DNA of 64,000 nt from Paenibacillus ferrarius (GTDB lineage Bacteria > Bacillota > Bacilli > Paenibacillales > NBRC-103111): the NCBI RefSeq assembly GCF_002027705.1, contig NZ_MBTG01000005.1, positions 124,001 through 188,000 of the forward strand, read 5' to 3'. Positions 14,572 through 49,516 of the stretch are shown here, one piece after another (within the stretch, counting starts at the first letter, position 1; every line of letters starts with the position of its first letter). The position numbers and the translations under genes were made by a program. The notes below the pieces were generated by a model that saw only the letters and a program-made list of their open reading frames with translations, was not told the DNA's origin and made no database searches.

Positions 14572-14617
14572 GGCAACATGAGTTTCAGCTGATTATTAGG
14601 CCTCCCACCCAAAGCCG

Positions 14618-14869
14618 ATTCCACTGGAGTTATTCCAGTGGAATTTGGGTCGGTGCCTCTAGGAAGACGGCTTCTTGCCTTTCACTGGATATTCTCCAGT
14701 CAAAGTTGCATTTCCACCTCCCAAAACCGATTCCACTGGAGTTATTCCAGTGGAATTTGGATTTGAGGCCTCTAGGAGGACTGTTTCTTGCCTTTCACTG
14801 GATAATCTCCAGTCAAAGTAGCATTTCCACCTCTCAAAACCGATTCCACTGGAGTTATTCCAGTGGAAT
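14618..14869. repeat. Family A hairpin array: alternating TTCCACTGG and TTTCACTGG palindromes
   Basis: Three identical hairpins with arms ATTCCACTGG and CCAGTGGAAT lie at 14618-14644, 14730-14756 and 14843-14869. Two hairpins of a second form, arms TTTCACTGG and CCAGTCAAA, lie between them at about 14680-14705 and 14793-14817. The linkers are also conserved (CTCTAGGA, TTCTTGCCTTTC, GCATTTCCACCTC), giving an imperfect tandem repeat of about 112 bp. Diverged relatives occur at 5879-6018. No coding potential is evident. Confidence 0.85.
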
Positions 14870-15075
14870 TACGCAACAAGGTTGGGGTACCAGTTATATA
14901 GCTCCTGCTGATCGCGTGGATATTATCAACTGAACCTGGTTTTGCAGTACTCTACCCAGAAGTGAGGCTGTCACATAAGCCAAATTTAGTAGGTAAGCGT
15001 CGATCGATGATGGGGTTGATTACTTTCATGTGGAATGAAGGGGCTTCCAGATCAGATCAGTTCTCACCCGAGTGT

Positions 15076-15263
15076 AAAAGCCTGCAAAAATACAGGAATT
15101 TCCGAGCGAATTCGGTTAAAAAGTGGAAATGCCTGCAATTGTGCAGGTATTTTTGTCTTTTTCGGCCGCTCATCCAGAAAAAGCCTCAAAAGCCTGCACA
15201 AATGCAGGCTTTTGATAGTTAAGGCTACTCCAAGAGCAAAAAAGATGCATAATTGCAGGTTTA
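15076..15263. repeat. Family C hairpin array: AAAGCCTGCA...TGCAGGCTTTT
   Basis: Four short hairpins built on GCCTGCA and TGCAGGC sit about 52-60 bases apart, at about 15076-15102, 15128-15153, 15188-15213 and 15241-15263. Two of them are near-perfect with A-runs before and T-runs after, like small bidirectional terminators. The same family recurs at 43818-44065 and 45334-45580. Sequence from 15264 to 15512 shows nothing recognisable. Confidence 0.8.
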
Positions 15264-15512
15264 CAGAAAGCAGCTGGAGCTAAACAGAGAAAGTAGGCGG
15301 CTCATCAAGAGATTATCAGAACCCATAGCAGCTATAGTGAAATAGATCCGAACGCCATATTCATACGCATGAAAGAAGATCACACGCAGAACGGCCAGAA
15401 CAGCCAGTTTGTGTCAGGTATCATGTACAATTCCGAGCTGCCAGTAATCGAATAGTAAAAGTAAGTTTGGTATAGGCACGATCGAGCCTCTCCGAATCCC
15501 AATCAAAAAAGC

Positions 15513-41399: not shown

Positions 41400-43607
41400 T
41401 TATTGAATTGGCAGCCCATATAGACGCCATGGTTTGCGTCCTCCAAAATATCCGCACAAATGGCTCTCCGCCGGTACAGGCTGAATTTCCCATGAATGTG
41501 CAGCGGTATGGTTGGCGCTATAGAGCACAGCTTCTTCACCCTGCGCCAGCTCAAGCTCGTAGACGCCGCCACCCAGAGAATGAAGCTGCACCGCCGAGCT
41601 TGCGGACACACGAATGTCTCCCAGCATGTCCGTTTTAATGCGGCATGGCTGTCCGGCCAAGCTTTTGACCCTGATCCATGCCGTAGCTCCTTCGGATCGA
41701 GTCGCGCTGACCACAAATGCGCCCTCGGCTCGTAAATCATGGAACACAACTTCCTTCCATTCGGAAGGAACGGCAGGGAATACCCTGATCTCTTCTCCCC
41801 AGCTTTGCAGCAGCATATCGTGGATCGCTTCCGCGCCGGCGAGCGGCGACTCGATGACTGGACCCGCCTCCTTGTACATCGTGTTCGGTTTCAGAAGATG
41901 CATCAGCGTCTTCAAATACTTAAGCGCTTCGTCACCTTCTCCCACTGCGGCAGCGATGGAAGCGGCGCCGGTAAACGTGAAACCGCGCAAGTCTCCCTCT
42001 CTCGATAACCAATGGCGAAGCGAGCGTACGATAAGCTCTCGTTCCTCCGGCGCATCGCCACTCATCAAATGCAGCGGGAAGACAGCCATCAAATGGCTGA
42101 AATGCCGATGCCCGAATTCCAGCGGCTGGCCACCGCCAACCATAAATCCAGTCTCATCGACAGGCAGCGGCGTTAATTGCTCCAGGGTCTCTTCCCAGCG
42201 GGGCCGGCCAGGGTCCTCTAAGCCAAGGATGCTGCAAATACGCAGCAAAGTTTGGCAGCCCCAGCGCAGCAATGCCAAGTCATAGTGTGTATCTGGTACA
42301 GCTAACTGCAGGAACGAGCCATACTCGGGCGAAATCATCGGAGGCAGATGCAATTTCCCGTCATCGCCCTCTTCCAGCAGGTGCAAATAGTACTGCACAC
42401 TTCGCTTCAACAGCGGAAAGAGCAGCTCCTTGAGCATAGGCGTGTCCATCGCGTGGCGGTAATGCCTCCATAAGTTATGGCATACCCACGTCAAGTTGCC
42501 TACTTCTGTGCCGACAGGGCCCACCAAATCATAGCTCATACTGCGGCCCAGCCCTGCCGAATCTTCACGGTACTGCTCAGGTACGTTGCGGATTAACTGC
42601 TCCATATTGTCGCGAAAAGCACGAACGAGCGATTCGCCCAGTTCCAGGCGGCCTGATGTATAGACAGGTGAATAGCTCATTTGCACATTCATGTTAAACC
42701 AGACACCTGCCCATGGTGTCGTCGTGAGCCATGGTCCTTGGTTGTCCATGATCATTCCGTCGGAACGGGTTGCGGAAGCCAGCTTGTACATTTGCACCCA
42801 ATAAAAGCCTTCCAGCATCGTATCGGGGATGGAAACAAAGCTTTGGGGATAGTAATCATGCCACCAACTCCGGTGCGCTTCCACCCAAGCCATCCACGGC
42901 TGCGTTGCCGCCTTCCGAACGTTCGTTTCCGTATTTTGCTGTACCTGATCACTGAAACCGTTCCCTATCGAAAGCCATAACCGGCGCAGGTTTGCCCCCT
43001 CATCTGCCTGCGCTTCCATCCATGCCGTCGTACAACCTCCATCATATTCGAACCTTTGCACGCCAACCGTCAATCCATCCTCCTTGGCCTGCCTGGTAAC
43101 TTCTGCCTTTGGGATAAATTGATTCAGGTTGCTGCCATCGGCGTTCTTGAGCACTGGGTCCACTTCACTGTGGGCGTACCACTCCATTCGAGCATCTTTC
43201 TCGCCTTCGCTCGTTTCCAGCTCCACTGCCAGCACCCTATCCTGGCTGTGGACGAAAGCGCGGACCTTCACCGTGCCTACCGTCGTTGTAATATCCGCCC
43301 GCAGCTCCGCATTCCACAAATCAACCCGAATGCTTGACGGTTGATAATACCACCCAGCCAGCTCAAGGTGCAGCTCGCCAACCGGCACGCGAGGCGGGAA
43401 TCCGCCTCCAGGTTTATGCGCCGTGACGTCTGTGCAGCCGAGCACAAAACGCAGCACATTGCGTTTATCGCGATGCTCCTCACTATATATCATGGCCCCG
43501 ATCACTCCGTTGCCGATAAAAGCCCCCTCGTCCCACGAAACTGGCTTAACAGACCAAGTCATATCATGTCTCGCCATAAATGATGGCCAGTCCACCGTTG
43601 TCTTCAT
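41400..43607 (-). CDS. GH95-like glycoside hydrolase, cytoplasmic
   Basis: This enzyme of about 735 residues carries the GH95 landmarks WDEGAFIGNGVIGAMIY near the N-terminus, WFNMNVQMSYSP (matching the NINxE block with both Asn residues kept), MISPEYGSF and GHRHFSHLMAVFPLHLMSG. There is no signal peptide. The start is uncertain: AAAGGG lies before a TTG, a TTG and this ATG; the ATG at 43607 is chosen although its spacing is long. It is distinct from the GH95-like enzyme at 18622, with little visible similarity outside the motifs. The activity is probably on alpha-L-fucose, alpha-L-galactose or a related side-chain sugar. It sits alone upstream of the sulfatase operon. Confidence 0.83.
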   Translation of the reverse strand: MKTTVDWPSFMARHDMTWSVKPVSWDEGAFIGNGVIGAMIYSEEHRDKRNVLRFVLGCTDVTAHKPGGGFPPRVPVGELHLELAGWYYQPSSIRVDLWNAELRADITTTVGTVKVRAFVHSQDRVLAVELETSEGEKDARMEWYAHSEVDPVLKNADGSNLNQFIPKAEVTRQAKEDGLTVGVQRFEYDGGCTTAWMEAQADEGANLRRLWLSIGNGFSDQVQQNTETNVRKAATQPWMAWVEAHRSWWHDYYPQSFVSIPDTMLEGFYWVQMYKLASATRSDGMIMDNQGPWLTTTPWAGVWFNMNVQMSYSPVYTSGRLELGESLVRAFRDNMEQLIRNVPEQYREDSAGLGRSMSYDLVGPVGTEVGNLTWVCHNLWRHYRHAMDTPMLKELLFPLLKRSVQYYLHLLEEGDDGKLHLPPMISPEYGSFLQLAVPDTHYDLALLRWGCQTLLRICSILGLEDPGRPRWEETLEQLTPLPVDETGFMVGGGQPLEFGHRHFSHLMAVFPLHLMSGDAPEERELIVRSLRHWLSREGDLRGFTFTGAASIAAAVGEGDEALKYLKTLMHLLKPNTMYKEAGPVIESPLAGAEAIHDMLLQSWGEEIRVFPAVPSEWKEVVFHDLRAEGAFVVSATRSEGATAWIRVKSLAGQPCRIKTDMLGDIRVSASSAVQLHSLGGGVYELELAQGEEAVLYSANHTAAHSWEIQPVPAESHLCGYFGGRKPWRLYGLPIQ

Positions 43608-43817
43608 CAACAAAAATCCACACCCTTTCTGCAAGCAAATTATTGTTTTGTACGAATGATTGATTTATGATTGATTGATTGATCATAAGGATGCGCTGTT
43701 TGGTCGCACCTCGCTCAATGTAAATATACCTCCGCACATATGGACTATCATTGTGTTTATTTGCTGCGATATGACTTTTTTTGCTTTTTTTACTGGCCAG
43801 CAGCCTCCTTCTGCTCA

Positions 43818-44065
43818 TGCTGGCAGATTGGCCTCAGGTCCGCCCGCATCCTGAGCAAAATTCCTGCGATTATGCATCCTTTTTGTCACGGAATGAGGGA
43901 AATCGCGAAAAGCCTGCGATTATACATCCTTTTGAGACCTTTTTTCGATTTCGGGAAGGAAATGCTTAAAAAGCCTGCACAATCGCAGGCTTTCTCATGT
44001 TTTCACCCGATTTGGTCGAAAAAGCCTGCACTTCCGCAGGCTTTTCAAAATAGGTAAGCCGCGGA
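43818..44065. repeat. Family C hairpin block, left copy flanking the minisatellite
   Basis: The block contains four CCTGC-based hairpins: TTCCTGCGATTATGCATCC, GCCTGCGATTATACATCC, AAAGCCTGCAC/CGCAGGCTTT and AAAGCCTGCAC/CCGCAGGCTTTT, with conserved linkers such as TTTTTCGATTTCGGGAAG and TTTCACCCGATTTGGTCGA. It is a near-identical direct repeat of 45334-45580. The sequence between 43608 and 43817 is the GH95-like promoter region with a short GATT tandem at about 43660-43683. Confidence 0.88.
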
Positions 44066-44195
44066 TGGTAGTTTTGGAGGTATTTTGTAATGTTAGTTGG
44101 GACGCGTTCAGTGCATATGCGGATACACCTGTGGGATAGTCCCACCGCCACCTCTATCTCCACTACCACTAGCAGCATCAGTAGCAACAGCACCG

Positions 44196-45233
44196 TCATC
44201 ATCATCATCATCATCATCACCATCACCACCACCACCACTAACCACTAACCACTAACTAGCAACCATTAAACACCAACCACTAAACACTAACCACTAAACA
44301 CCAACCATCAACCACCAACCACCAACCACCAACCACTAACCATCAACCACCAACCACCAACCACTAACCACTAACCATCAACCACCAACCACTAACCACC
44401 AACCACTAACCACTAACCACTAAACACCAACCACTAAACACCAACCACTAAACACCAACCACTAAACACCAACCACTAACCACCAACCACTAAACACCAA
44501 CCACTAACCACTAACCACCAATCACCATCACCAACCACCAGCCACTAACCACCAACACCTTCACCATCACCATCACCAATCACCAACCACCAACCACTAA
44601 ACACCAATCACAAACCACCAATCACCAATCACCAACCACCAGCCACCAACCACCAACCACTAACCACCAGCCACTAACCATCAACCACCAAGCGCCAACC
44701 ATCAACACCATCACCAACCAGCAGCCACTAACCACCAACACCATCACCAATCACCAATCACCAACCACTAACCACCAACCACTAACCACCAATCACCAAC
44801 CACCATCACCATCACCATCACCATCACCATCACCAACCAGCAGCCACTAACCACCAACACCTTCACCATCACCAATCACCAATCACCAACCACCAGCAAC
44901 CAACCACTAACCACCAACCACTAAACACCAACCACTAAACACCAACCACTAAACACCAATCACCAACCACCATCACCATCACCAACCAGCAGCCACTAAC
45001 CACCAACACCTTCACCATCACCAATCACCAATCACCAACCACTAACCACCAACCACTAACCACTAACCACTAACCACTAACCACTAACCACCAATCACCA
45101 ACCACCAACCATCAACCACTAACCATCAACCACTAGCCACCAACCACTAACCACTAACCACTAACCACTAACCACCAATCACCAATCACCAATCACCAAT
45201 CACCAATCACCATACCACCAACCATCAACACCA
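44196..45233. repeat. About 1 kb heptanucleotide minisatellite (ACCACTA/ACCACCA units)
   Basis: After an ATC trinucleotide run (44196-44225) the sequence is almost wholly 7-base units of the form A-A/C-C-A-C/T-C/T-A, such as ACCACTA, ACCACCA, AACACCA, ACCATCA and AATCACC. Short CACCAT runs interrupt it. Roughly 130-140 units cover about 1 kb. The plus strand has almost no G, so the minus strand is strongly G-rich (TGGTTAG, TGGTTGG). Open frames through it are low-complexity artefacts. Confidence 0.9.
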
Positions 45234-45333
45234 CTCGGAAACACAGCTGGCAGCAGGGTTATACCTATTTTTCTGTTTATGCACACTTTCATGGTAGGCT
45301 GGCTTGAGTCGCTTGATTGGTTTGAGTCTGCTA

Positions 45334-45580
45334 ATGCTGGCAGATTGCCTTGAGCTCGTCCGCATATCGCATAATTCCTGCAATTATGCATCCTTTTCGT
45401 CTTGGAAATGGGGGAAATCGGGAAAAGCCTGCGATTATGCATCCTTTCGTGAGCGTTTTTCGATTTCGGGAAGAAAATGCTAAAAAAGCCTGCACAATCG
45501 CAGGCTTTCTCATGCTTTCACCCGATTTGATCGAAAAAGCCTGCACTTCCGCAGGCTTTTCAAAATCGTTAACCGCGGCT
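45334..45580. repeat. Family C hairpin block, right copy flanking the minisatellite
   Basis: This direct repeat of 43818-44065 has the same order of four CCTGC hairpins and the same linkers, starting ATGCTGGCAGATTG and ending CCGCAGGCTTTTCAAAA. By eye about nine in ten bases match. From 45581 to 45742 there is no gene; no clear terminator for cydDC was found there. Confidence 0.88.
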
Positions 45581-45742
45581 TTCTCTTATATGATGGCGCA
45601 TTCGCTAATGATGGCTTTGGGCCAGCCACATTCAATCCCGCCGTCAACTTTTCCACAAGTAGAAGCCCCAAAGGCCACTTAATCTACTGAAATGCGAGCA
45701 TCTGTCGGAACTGCTTGAGCAATACCGTCCATGTCACTTCAT

Positions 45743-48700
45743 TCATACCCTCGCATGAACCTCATGAGGTTCATTCACATGAATGTGCTGCCAATCCTTT
45801 TCCTGCTCAAGCTGCCAGAGACGATAGTAATAGCCCTGGCGATGGAGAAGTTCCAAGTGTGTCCCCCGTTCTTGGACACACCCCTCATGCATGACGATGA
45901 TTTCATTCATGCGTTCCAGACCTGTCAGTTTATGCGTGATCCAAAGCACCGCTTTGTCCTTCAGCAGCGTATCCAAATTGCTCCAAATCGCCTTTTCTGT
46001 CAACGCATCGAGCCCTGTTGCCGGTTCATCGAACAACACCGCTGGACTTTTGCGGAGCAGCGCACGTGCCAATGCCAGTCGCTGCCGCTCGCCACCAGAC
46101 AATAAACTGCCCATTTCGCCAATCATAGTCTCATATCCGTTCGGGAACTGCTCGATCGTATCGTCAATCTGCGCCAAGCGTGTCGCCTCTCGCAGCTCAT
46201 CTTCGGTCGCTTCGGGACAGCTTAACCGCAAGTTTGCATTCACAGATGCGTTAAACAAGTGAACGTTCTGCGAGACAACGGCAAATTCCGAGCGGACGAA
46301 AGCCGCTGGCAAATCACGAAGCTCAGTACCATTCATCGTAACGGAACCCTCGGTATAAGGACGCAGCTTTAATAGCAGATGCAGCAGTGTACTTTTCCCA
46401 GCTCCGCTCTCACCGACAATGGCGGTCATCGTTCCACGTTTCAACGTCATCGAAAGGTTTCTAATGGCATAAGGCTCCTCAGGGCCGTACTGGAACGAGA
46501 GCCCACGAATGGAAGTCGTCCAGTCATCTTTGAGAGAGCCGTTCCCTTCACGAGCTGCAGCGGGCTCAGACAAGCTAATTTCTCTTGTTTTGTGGTTTTT
46601 CTTGTCAATCTGCTTTTTCTCGTAAATCAGGCTTTTCTCGTCAATCTGCTTTTTCTCATCAATTCTCTTTTTCTCGCCAATCTGCTTTTTCTCACCAATC
46701 TGATTTTCCTCATCACGATTCTCGTCTGCCAATCGAAACAGTCTATCTGCGGATGTAAGTGTAAGACCCATAGACTGAAATGCGTTCGGCAGCGGCATGA
46801 CTGCTTCAAAGCTAGCTAGCGTAACCATAACTAAAGCTGGAATCGCGATACCCTCTAGCTGGCCGCGGCTGACGAAATACACCGAGGCCGCAAGGACCAA
46901 CCACATCGCCAAATGCGCAGCCGCCAGCATGCTCCCACTTGCGTAGGCTGCGACCTTATGCTGACTCGTTTGATACACATTCGAACGAGCTTGTATCTCA
47001 TCAATTCGAAGAACACGCTCGTTGACACGACCGTATACGATCAAATCTTTGATCCCAGCGATGAGATCCGCTGTTTCGGCATACATGGCTGCTCGCGCTT
47101 GCACGATAGCCTCGCCATGAGATTTAGCGCATCGAGCGCTAAGCCAAGGGATGCCTATGCCAGCCAACCCCAACATACAAGCAAGGAGAATCGCCAATTC
47201 AACTTGATGCGCAGCCATCACGATACAGCCTAGAAGTCCTGTGAGCACAGCAACAAGCGGGGGCGCAAGAACGCGTAAATACACATTTTGCAATTGCTCC
47301 ACATCGCCAATGACCGCATGAAGCAGTTCTCCGCTTCGTCCTTTTTCTAGCAGCTTAACTCCATTTGGTTCCAAACGTTCGTATAACCATACGCGTATTC
47401 GATGCAAGATTCGGAACGTCAGATCATGAGAAACAAGCCGCTCGAAATACCGAAACACGCCTCTGGAAAGGCCGAAAAATCGGACTCCCACAATCGGAAT
47501 CCATAGCATTAGCACAGATTCGGGGCGCAGCGCCGCTTGAGCAATAAGGTAGCCTGAGGTCCCCATCAGTCCCATATTAGCGCCGATGGTCAAGCAGCCG
47601 AGCAGCACTGCCAAAGCTGTCCGTCCTTTGTAAGGGCGAACGAACTCAAGCATCCGTAAGAACGTCCCGCTCCGATGGCTAGTTCGTTCTCGCTCATTTG
47701 AAGCAGGGCGGGATGCAGGGCGTCTAACCGATTCAGTCTCCGTGTCTTCGGAAGATCCATGAACTTCAGCCCCGTTTAGGAACGCCTCTGAGTGGGCTGA
47801 GCTGTTAGCTTCCATCATGCGGGCATACAGCCCACCAGCGGCTAAAAGACCATCTGGCGTTCCGATTTCCGCAATCCGCCCGTTCTCCATCACAATGATG
47901 CGATCCGCGTTTTGTACCGTTTCAAGACGATGCGCCACTGTTATTGACATCCGATCTTGCAACTGCTCATTCAGTCCCTGTCGCACGACAGCTTCATGAA
48001 GGAGATCTAGCCCTGAGGTTGGCTCGTCGAGCAGCAGAATTGGCGCTTGCTTAAGCAGTGCGCGTGCAATAGCAATACGCTGCACTTGACCGCCTGAAAG
48101 ACGGACAGACTCCCCCATCATCGTCTGATCGCCTTGCGGAAGCCTGTCGATGAAATCGACGCCTGATGCGAGAAGCGAAGCAGCCATATCTGTTTCTGTA
48201 ACATCACCGCAGCCCATGATCAAATTTTCTTTCAAAGTGCCATGATAAAGCCTTGGATTCTGATTGACGGTGGATAGCTGATCGCGCCACCACGTCATCG
48301 ACAGCTCGGACAACTCGATGCCATCGACTAGAATTCGTCCTTCCGTTGGCCGAATGAAACCCTGAAGAACATCTAAGAGCGAGCTCTTGCCAGAGCCCGA
48401 TGGCCCAATTACGGCCACTCGCTCTCCAGGTTCAAGCGTGAGCGATACGTTTGAAATTGCAGCTCTATTTTCCCCAGGGTAAGTAAGGCCGATCTCTTGA
48501 AATTCGATTCTGTACCCCTTCGTATTCCAAAGCGGGTGCCGACTATCCTCCCGTTCCGTCCAGCCTGGGGATTCTGTTTCCAGAATATCCATGATGCGGG
48601 CAGCAGCAGCCATGCCATTCGTGCTCGCATGAAACTGGGTCCCTAGCGCGCGCACAGGCACATAAAATTCTGGCGTCAAGAGAAGCACTAGAAAGGCATG

Positions 48701-49516
48701 TTCAAACCCAATTTCTCCAGCAACCAGCCGCAATCCTAGAAATACAGCAACGATGGCCGTACTAAGTGTAGCGAACAACTCCATAACAAACGCCGACAAA
48801 AAAGCTAAACGCAAGGTCCCCATCGTCGTTTTGCGGTATTCTTCACTAATCCGGGAAATAATTTCAATTTGCGCGCGACTGCGGTTGAAAATTTGCAGTG
48901 TCGGTAAACCGCGCAGGATATCGAGAAAGTGGCCGCCTAATCGTCCGAGCGTTTTAAACTGCTTTTGTGCCTTCGCTTTAGCGGCCATGCCAACGAGAAT
49001 CATAAAAAGAATGAGCAGCGGGAATGTGACAGCGAGCACTAGGGCTGACAGCCAATCCAAGCCTGACACAAAACAAAATACGGCAGCAGGAATGAGCATG
49101 GACAAGGCCATCTGCGGCAAATAGCGGGCCAAGTATGTCTCCAATTGTTCAACGCCTTCGTATACAGTGCTGATTAATTCTCCGCTGCGCTCGCCTTTGG
49201 CGTAGTTCGGTCCTAAATCGGCGATTTTTTGCAGCAGCCTTATACGAAGATCGCTCTTAATGCGCAGCGCCATACGGGACGATACATAGTCACTCGCTGT
49301 TTGAATTGCCGCTCTCAGGCCAATCCATCCGAGAAGCACAACCAACACTGGAAACAGCGCAGCAAGCCCAAGCCCTTTCATAAACGCCCCGTTAACAATT
49401 TGAGCCAAATAGGAAGCTTCTACGATAATGAGAGCTCCCCCGGCTAGGCCAAGCCCAATACAGATGGCAAACAGTTGCATCGTCCCCGGCACTTTCAGTA
49501 ATAGCTTCTTCATCAT
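45743..49516 (-). CDS. cydDC: Fused CydD-CydC thiol-reductant ABC exporter
   Basis: This single 1257-residue protein contains two complete ABC half-transporters. The CydD half has six helices in about residues 15-330 and an NBD with GPSGSGKSS (about 372), LSGGQVQRIAIARAL and ILLLDEPTSGLD. The CydC half has six helices in about 640-900 and an NBD with GESGAGKST (about 1032), LSGGERQRLALARAL and AVLFDEPATGLD. The heterodimer normally exports cysteine/glutathione-type thiols needed to assemble cytochrome bd. An unusual charged insert of six hexapeptide repeats lies at about residues 936-971, between the last helix and the second NBD. The start codon directly follows the cydB stop. Confidence 0.93.
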   Translation of the reverse strand: MMKKLLLKVPGTMQLFAICIGLGLAGGALIIVEASYLAQIVNGAFMKGLGLAALFPVLVVLLGWIGLRAAIQTASDYVSSRMALRIKSDLRIRLLQKIADLGPNYAKGERSGELISTVYEGVEQLETYLARYLPQMALSMLIPAAVFCFVSGLDWLSALVLAVTFPLLILFMILVGMAAKAKAQKQFKTLGRLGGHFLDILRGLPTLQIFNRSRAQIEIISRISEEYRKTTMGTLRLAFLSAFVMELFATLSTAIVAVFLGLRLVAGEIGFEHAFLVLLLTPEFYVPVRALGTQFHASTNGMAAAARIMDILETESPGWTEREDSRHPLWNTKGYRIEFQEIGLTYPGENRAAISNVSLTLEPGERVAVIGPSGSGKSSLLDVLQGFIRPTEGRILVDGIELSELSMTWWRDQLSTVNQNPRLYHGTLKENLIMGCGDVTETDMAASLLASGVDFIDRLPQGDQTMMGESVRLSGGQVQRIAIARALLKQAPILLLDEPTSGLDLLHEAVVRQGLNEQLQDRMSITVAHRLETVQNADRIIVMENGRIAEIGTPDGLLAAGGLYARMMEANSSAHSEAFLNGAEVHGSSEDTETESVRRPASRPASNERERTSHRSGTFLRMLEFVRPYKGRTALAVLLGCLTIGANMGLMGTSGYLIAQAALRPESVLMLWIPIVGVRFFGLSRGVFRYFERLVSHDLTFRILHRIRVWLYERLEPNGVKLLEKGRSGELLHAVIGDVEQLQNVYLRVLAPPLVAVLTGLLGCIVMAAHQVELAILLACMLGLAGIGIPWLSARCAKSHGEAIVQARAAMYAETADLIAGIKDLIVYGRVNERVLRIDEIQARSNVYQTSQHKVAAYASGSMLAAAHLAMWLVLAASVYFVSRGQLEGIAIPALVMVTLASFEAVMPLPNAFQSMGLTLTSADRLFRLADENRDEENQIGEKKQIGEKKRIDEKKQIDEKSLIYEKKQIDKKNHKTREISLSEPAAAREGNGSLKDDWTTSIRGLSFQYGPEEPYAIRNLSMTLKRGTMTAIVGESGAGKSTLLHLLLKLRPYTEGSVTMNGTELRDLPAAFVRSEFAVVSQNVHLFNASVNANLRLSCPEATEDELREATRLAQIDDTIEQFPNGYETMIGEMGSLLSGGERQRLALARALLRKSPAVLFDEPATGLDALTEKAIWSNLDTLLKDKAVLWITHKLTGLERMNEIIVMHEGCVQERGTHLELLHRQGYYYRLWQLEQEKDWQHIHVNEPHEVHARV
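46603..46710 (-). repeat. Six 18-bp coding repeats within cydDC encoding QIGEKK-like hexapeptides
   Basis: Six consecutive 18-base units (consensus on the plus strand CGTCAATCTGCTTTTTCT) encode QIGEKK, QIGEKK, RIDEKK, QIDEKS, LIYEKK and QIDKKN. The period is exactly two turns of six codons with no frame disruption. It occupies the linker before the second nucleotide-binding domain. Confidence 0.9.

Follow-up and report, generated by a model that had tools for sequence, protein, structure and literature searches.

The intergenic stretch between a GH95-family glycoside hydrolase gene (41400-43634, - strand) and a fused ABC transporter gene (45743-49516, - strand) of Paenibacillus ferrarius carries a long tandem array of 7-bp units between two clusters of CCTGC hairpins (blocks A and B). 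The question raised by this locus is whether the array is a conserved telomere- or quadruplex-like device or non-coding DNA that is being rewritten. The analysis covered a window of 64,000 nucleotides, i.e., the whole stretch of DNA under study, the rest of the 9.18 Mb genome, the sister species Paenibacillus alba and further relatives. The features of the locus are collected in Table 1. Two cytochrome bd oxidase subunit genes adjoin the fused ABC transporter gene, which, based on this gene order, we take to be cydDC. Within the transporter frame, an 18-bp repeat of 6.7 copies was found at 46596-46715, about 1 kb from block B.

Table 1. Coordinates of the array, its flanking segments and the hairpin blocks in the window.
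Feature	Position	Strand	Basis
Hairpin block A, a copy of the dispersed repeat with four CCTGC units of ~50 bp, units 1 and 2 in inverted orientation to unit 3	43810..44054	+	sequence searches, inverted/direct-repeat search
Leader, conserved segment of ~110 bp that contains the GTGGGATAGTCCCAC hairpin and separates block A from the array	44055..44165	+	
Transition zone at the array edge, CAT/CAC triplets	44191..44231	+	TRF rows, period 3 and 9
Heptanucleotide minisatellite, CACCAAC/CACTAAC with CACCAT islands, + strand almost without G	44224..45233	+	TRF, pattern search, composition
Tail, conserved segment of ~86 bp between the array and block B	45237..45322	+	
Hairpin block B, the other direct copy, lying downstream of the ABC transporter gene and carrying a terminator-like hairpin on the - strand	45323..45569	+	
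Third hairpin block copy in the window, more diverged	15068..15266	-	

The sequence-only reading had described a 7-bp array between two hairpin blocks of the same orientation, and this arrangement is real. TRF scores the array at 975, with 147.7 copies of period 7, a consensus of CACCAAC and 80% matches, and the autocorrelation peaks at 7, 14 and 21. The array is impure, its 7-bp register being interrupted by 6-mer islands (CACCAT). The + strand contains 42% A, 47% C, 9.5% T and 1.4% G, with a maximal G-free run of 281. Blocks A and B, which lie about 1515 bp from each other, form direct repeats with matching segments of 166 nt (92%) and 48 nt (81%); with 87.6% identity over 242 aligned positions they are similar rather than, as had been stated, nearly identical. 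Nor is the array immediately sandwiched by them, since a leader and a tail intervene, both of which are conserved in other copies. A search for the same array elsewhere in the genome, which had been proposed as a check, led back to this single locus: a degenerate pattern of three perfect heptamers gave 24 matches genome-wide, 24 of them inside this array. The same pattern read backwards gave 14 matches in the genome, counted without their places. The view that long 7-bp arrays are rare in bacteria holds in part. According to the portion of PMC4679880 used here, a survey (Mrazek et al. 2007) found that, in most genomes, heptanucleotides are more abundant than any other category of long simple repeats, which speaks against rarity, whereas long simple repeats taken together are sporadic among bacteria.

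In P. alba LMG 31323, the same place has the order block-leader-array-tail-block, within an 11.5-kb alignment of 93.7% identity. The P. alba contig stops just past block B, and the comparison there covers the hydrolase side, not the ABC transporter gene. The P. alba array (locus L034) consists of 820 bp of CACTAT, CACCAT and CACTCAT units, i.e., 6- and 7-mers. Its best local alignment with the window array scores 253, and this score was reached by 58 of 400 unit-shuffled P. alba arrays (range 203-286; 2 of 30 in the first run). Since shuffled copies reach the same score, the two arrays have a common composition but no detectable common order. The leader and the tail are 82.7% and 82.6% identical between the two genomes, respectively, and the gap to the hydrolase gene shows 90.2% identity over 183 positions. 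Between the same flanks, the array has thus changed strongly from one sister species to the other. Because the sister species carries a different repeat at this place, the array reads as rapidly rewritten non-coding DNA and not as a conserved telomere or quadruplex device.

The same comparison bears on the reliability of the array itself. The window was taken from a draft assembly in 73 contigs, and repeats are easily misassembled, which would make an assembly artefact conceivable. We regard this as highly improbable, because the independent P. alba assembly shows the same layout with a similarly long, different array between the same blocks; in addition, the unit variants are heterogeneous enough for assembly. 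The blocks also differ between the species. Two sites in blocks A and B group the orthologues, five group the within-genome copies and four are crossed; at these small numbers, the lack of an orthology signal would fit gene conversion between neighbouring blocks. In P. alba, block B (L034, about 320-375) has one additional hairpin unit of ~50 bp, and therefore the block too varies in unit number.

When 28 loci of the P. ferrarius genome, the window among them, were compared with 23 loci of P. alba, 17 block loci proved to be orthologous. An array lies near the block in at least one species at 9 of the 17, and in neither genome at the other 8 (thresholds: TRF score 60, 45 bp, 300 bp). Array length is unequal in all nine array-bearing pairs, amounting to 1010/820, 781/468, 130+209/539, 444/392, 244/374, 50/140, 398/305, 170/83 and 70/97 bp in P. 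ferrarius/P. alba; the 244/374 pair has an additional 214-bp array in P. alba only. The unit consensus is clearly different in three of the nine pairs (window/L034, L041/L042 and L073/L098), the last of which keeps a 9-bp period with different letters. The pair L077/L095 has a 24-bp unit, and this repeat may be coding. As expected of a VNTR, the array at a fixed site thus differs between close relatives, in length at all 9 of the array-bearing pairs. The comparison covers two species, each represented by one genome, and the arrays may also be unstable at present. Block number is also unequal at two orthologous loci (two vs. one at L041/L042, three vs. one at L043/L091); therefore, whole element units are gained or lost too.

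The leader was found at five places across the two genomes, and the tail is also present beside further blocks. Leader and/or tail with an adjoining array occur at this locus, at a second place in the P. ferrarius genome (C2, L041) and at the two matching P. alba loci. At the second place, the order on one strand is leader-array-tail-block-leader-array-block, i.e., two tandem units. The array units are not the same across the leader-linked copies and comprise CACCAAC; CACCAT/CACTAT/CACTCAT; a 9-bp CACCAGCAC-like unit; and TCATCACCA. By eye, the tail holds an imperfect 9-mer triplet (GGCTTGAGT/CGCTTGATT/GGTTTGAGT), and several other blocks have arrays of this 9-mer class on their tail side. It is the intervening array that is rewritten, with locus-specific units, whereas leader, tail and block are conserved. 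Despite the differing units, the leader strand is rich in C and poor in G in all five leader-linked arrays, a bias that could reflect selection or only seed inheritance. The leader-block stretch folds somewhat better than its shuffles (z -2.6), as its hairpins would lead one to expect.

The minus strand had been likened to a telomere, with GG doublets that could form two-tier G-quadruplexes. In the window array, 33 two-tier motifs cover 69% of the - strand; coverage is 21% in the P. alba orthologue and 3%, 0% and 26% in three other leader-linked arrays, and a three-tier motif is present in none of the five. The G-tract spacing that would characterise a quadruplex- or telomere-like array is not conserved in the orthologue or the paralogues. 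The telomere-likeness is therefore superficial, and a telomere or G-quadruplex function is rejected because the property is not conserved. A less specific version of this idea is that the array is selected for the physics of its strands (a G-poor single strand and a GG-doublet strand capable of quadruplexes or R-loops) and not for its letters. The common strand bias of the five leader-linked arrays and the high motif coverage in the window are in its favour. Nevertheless, such selection appears unlikely to us, given the drop in coverage outside the window, the absence of three-tier motifs, the tail-side arrays that are often G-rich on the block strand, and a G-rich strand without consistent direction relative to neighbouring open frames in 15 arrays. 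Over the same 15 arrays, an R-loop model that requires the G-rich strand to be co-directional with the neighbouring genes in every case was rejected, as no consistent pattern was found.

It was also considered whether the leader and the array encode a product, either a small protein starting at a leader ATG or a structured RNA. An ATG is present at the same leader position in three of five copies, a GGAG-type stretch precedes it in the window and in P. alba, and one frame of the P. alba array runs for 193 codons without a stop. However, the frame in the window stops after 52 codons, at the first array repeats, in two of the five leaders ATA or CTG takes the place of the ATG, and a 1-nt length change is present in one of the three ATG leaders. 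Long open frames are to be expected in the array, because an almost G-free strand allows only TAA stops. As for an RNA, no Rfam family reached the gathering score anywhere in the window (eight weak matches fell below the threshold), and the block alignment shows compensatory change in only 2 of 19 pairs, with a covariation term of +0.14. With a reading frame that is not conserved and no Rfam match at the gathering score in the whole window, a protein or RNA product was rejected as very improbable. Two terminator-like hairpins were found, in both blocks, which is not above chance (mean of 1.6 in shuffles of the region), and a promoter scan at the locus stayed near the chance level. Judging by the shape of a hairpin followed by a T-run, the blocks may, quite tentatively, serve as bidirectional intrinsic terminators between genes.

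The duplicated flanks, which had suggested that the array arose or expanded between two repeats, are not private to this locus; both copies are members of a dispersed family, and several arrays adjoin a single block. With block A as the query, the P. ferrarius genome gave 56 matches on both strands (best 40 of 230 candidates scored). A fixed-spacing sample of 1.2 Mb of the genome contains 25 blocks of at least 40 bits, from which roughly 190 blocks per genome are extrapolated. A model of the last 141 block positions, built from 20 copies, matched 150 of 150 scored candidates in each genome (best 150 of 5302 in P. ferrarius and best 150 of 5047 in P. alba); these 300 matches are not a block count, because one block can match on both strands. 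By hand count among the matches listed, the P. ferrarius genome has at least about 72 distinct block places, all of at least 116 bits. The block matched 9 of the 60 genomes searched, P. ferrarius included. Strong matches were obtained only in P. ferrarius and P. alba, and the other seven genomes gave weak ones, i.e., low-identity relatives (G004, G016, G018, G020, G028, G039 and G041). The blocks are therefore a dispersed family common to two species. A plasmid origin of the block was rejected, as the plasmid collection gave no match at the sensitivity used. In addition, a 113-bp repeat of 2.3 copies (14608-14870) lies 198 bp from the older third block of the window, and a 112-bp repeat with similar words is present elsewhere in the genome (L058, 16142-16361). 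This suggests another dispersed repeat family.

Short-unit arrays in the sampled DNA concentrate beside blocks. Such arrays were defined by a unit of at most 20 bp and a length of at least 150 bp, and were regarded as near when within 300 bp of a block. In block-centred loci with 62 blocks of at least 40 bits, 14 short-unit arrays are near (in 46.6 kb of block and flank) and none lies in the other ~257 kb; as several are orthologues, the 14 correspond to 10 independent loci. The best-scoring blocks were chosen for this set, and four loci (L034, L035, L041 and L042) were fetched with an array or leader already known or suspected; without them, the counts are 10 near and 0 far. The fixed-spacing 1.2 Mb, in which block flanks make up less than 2% (about 20 kb), contains four short-unit arrays of at least 150 bp, one near (48 bp from a block) and three far. 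When arrays of at least 100 bp are counted, two of eight are near blocks (48 and 54 bp away), and 2 of the 25 blocks of this sample, which are lower-scoring (at most 152 bits), have such an array nearby. Two of the far arrays are located in stop-free stretches of 240 and 681 codons and the third in one of 134, while the near array is in one of 163; since all lie in stop-free stretches, coding status does not separate near and far arrays cleanly. The 681-codon stretch contains a 950-bp array of a 9-mer (ACAGGAGCA; L201, 12431-13380) and perhaps encodes a collagen-like protein.

The fraction of bases in tandem repeats is 8.9% in block flanks, 4.4% in other non-ORF DNA and 1.0% in ORFs, based on 464 kb (20 fixed-spacing stretches and the window, whose own array is counted). 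For the block-centred sets, the corresponding values are 11.3% and 15.0% in flanks vs. 2.3% and 2.6% elsewhere outside ORFs. Short-unit arrays are thus strongly enriched at blocks and tandem repeats as a whole modestly so, and the enrichment seems to be greatest at the best-conserved blocks. Hairpins alone are insufficient to produce arrays, because 33 of 60 blocks of at least 70 bits in the block-centred loci have no tandem repeat within 300 bp.

Beyond P. alba, nine diverged block loci from five congeners were compared, and six of them are without a tandem repeat. A 51-bp repeat lies inside the block at L023 (G018) and L027 (G028), and an 81-bp repeat is situated about 40 bp from the block at L029 (G018). 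In the more distant congener G028, a 353-bp array of the G-rich 14-mer TAGGGTTTTGGTTG (L027, 2019-2371) is about 350 bp from the diverged block, which fits the array-block association in another species, just beyond the 300-bp limit. Among GH95 relatives, 12 of 76 loci were inspected, P. alba included. No heptamer array is present at the other 11, and a block was matched in one of them (L116), weakly at 22.7 bits and about 1.3 kb past the far end of the gene. The gene neighbourhood differs at these 11 loci, since the ABC transporter gene is present in none. One of them, from P. marchantiophytorum (GH95 protein 94% identical), has a different tandem repeat of 213 bp upstream of the gene (L113, 5397-5890) and no block in its 14-kb locus.

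The order block-leader-array-tail-block indicates the possibility of a mobile element with direct terminal repeats and an array interior, as in the BrickBuilt MITE. The repetition of leader-array-tail-block as two tandem units at the second place (L041) and the dispersal of the family, with 25 blocks in 1.2 Mb, would agree with it. We nevertheless consider this improbable. All inverted pairs of at least 14 nt in 43790-45620 are among the block hairpins, leaving no terminal inverted repeat of this length at the outer ends, and the leader has only five matches in two genomes. Blocks are common to P. alba at 17 of the 28 compared P. ferrarius loci, and for 2 of the 11 unmatched loci the corresponding flank was located in P. 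alba, each time with a block next to it; thus, no recent movement is seen. Likewise, with these 2 of 11 looked up, no locus with and without the element (empty site) was identified between the two genomes. A Y1-type transposase (PF01797) is absent from the P. ferrarius genome, while the control search was positive in 5 of 14 named genomes. The candidate of a REP driven by RAYT was rejected, as the genome has no PF01797 gene.

Several known systems resemble parts of this locus. The STRR repeats are tandem heptamer arrays of cyanobacteria, REP/BIME palindromes are used as terminators or protein-binding sites, and SVA is a dispersed animal element carrying a variable tandem array. BrickBuilt of Porphyromonas gingivalis, as presented in the sections of PMC4596501 used here, is a MITE containing a minisatellite of one 23-nt unit, with a leader, a tail and small inverted-repeat ends; its repeat number varies between strains, and its ends are sometimes truncated. 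The same sections also mention 464/PgRS elements with 41-nt tandem repeats. BrickBuilt is a close known analogue, being likewise intergenic and present in multiple copies, with its minisatellite enclosed by leader and tail. Unlike its fixed 23-nt unit, the Paenibacillus units differ by copy and between orthologues, and in place of inverted-repeat ends the flanks are direct multi-hairpin blocks, where no terminal inverted repeat was found.

With REP/BIME, as described in the part of PMC2817692 consulted, the blocks have in common that they are high-copy interspersed palindromic repeats, whereas the Paenibacillus unit is a ~200-250-bp set of four hairpins in a genome without a PF01797 gene. Heptamer arrays are known from cyanobacteria, Beggiatoaceae and Bacteroidetes, and among them the TAACTGA repeats (PMC4679880, same portion) reuse one heptamer at many loci. 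Like STRR arrays they are tandem 7-bp repeats, and the known ones are scattered taxonomically; in contrast, the Paenibacillus heptamer pattern occurs at a single locus, and other element loci have other units. In carnivores, according to the excerpt of PMC1634856 used, a SINE carries or seeds a variable microsatellite array; the SINE-linked arrays and SVA belong to eukaryotic retroelements, whereas the Paenibacillus family is bacterial. A survey of E. coli found that the majority of minisatellites corresponded to palindromic units, as reported in the passage of PMC2884548 at hand. Among the open-licence papers listed on Paenibacillus elements and on minisatellites beside bacterial interspersed repeats, no description of the family was found, which does not prove its absence. 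Heptamer arrays and leader/tail minisatellites are already known; what sets this family apart is arrays that change their unit at copies of one element.

Based on the above results, we consider it probable that the array is a non-coding hypermutable minisatellite, grown from the C/A-rich end of the leader within an interspersed hairpin element (tail, CCTGC block, leader). The array would be seeded at this end and would then expand, contract and homogenise via replication slippage and unequal exchange. The hairpin blocks may assist through fork stalling or breakage, as may recombination between neighbouring blocks, which lack an orthology signal. Similarly, the 9-mer of the tail would be the seed from which arrays of its class expanded at other copies. 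Most likely, the array itself serves no function that depends on its sequence. A bolder proposal, to which we give only tentative credence, is that leader and tail repeatedly spawn arrays with a locus-specific unit and the same strand bias, the unit sequence being wholly replaced between sister species, and that their growth is driven by the hairpin blocks and not by chance slippage alone. If true, this repeated generation of arrays would give bacteria an equivalent of the VNTRs that elements such as SVA carry.

To our knowledge, the birth of a minisatellite is rarely caught in the act. Here, one element family provides many parallel trials in two sister genomes, with similar flanks and seeds and different arrays, which makes it possible to test whether hairpin clusters induce the birth of arrays and the replacement of their units. 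In addition, the arrays could serve as fast typing markers for this Paenibacillus group. The locus is also a warning that conspicuous telomere- or quadruplex-like arrays can be transient states. Its main interest is that, in two sister species, arrays beside copies of one element switch their units in parallel.
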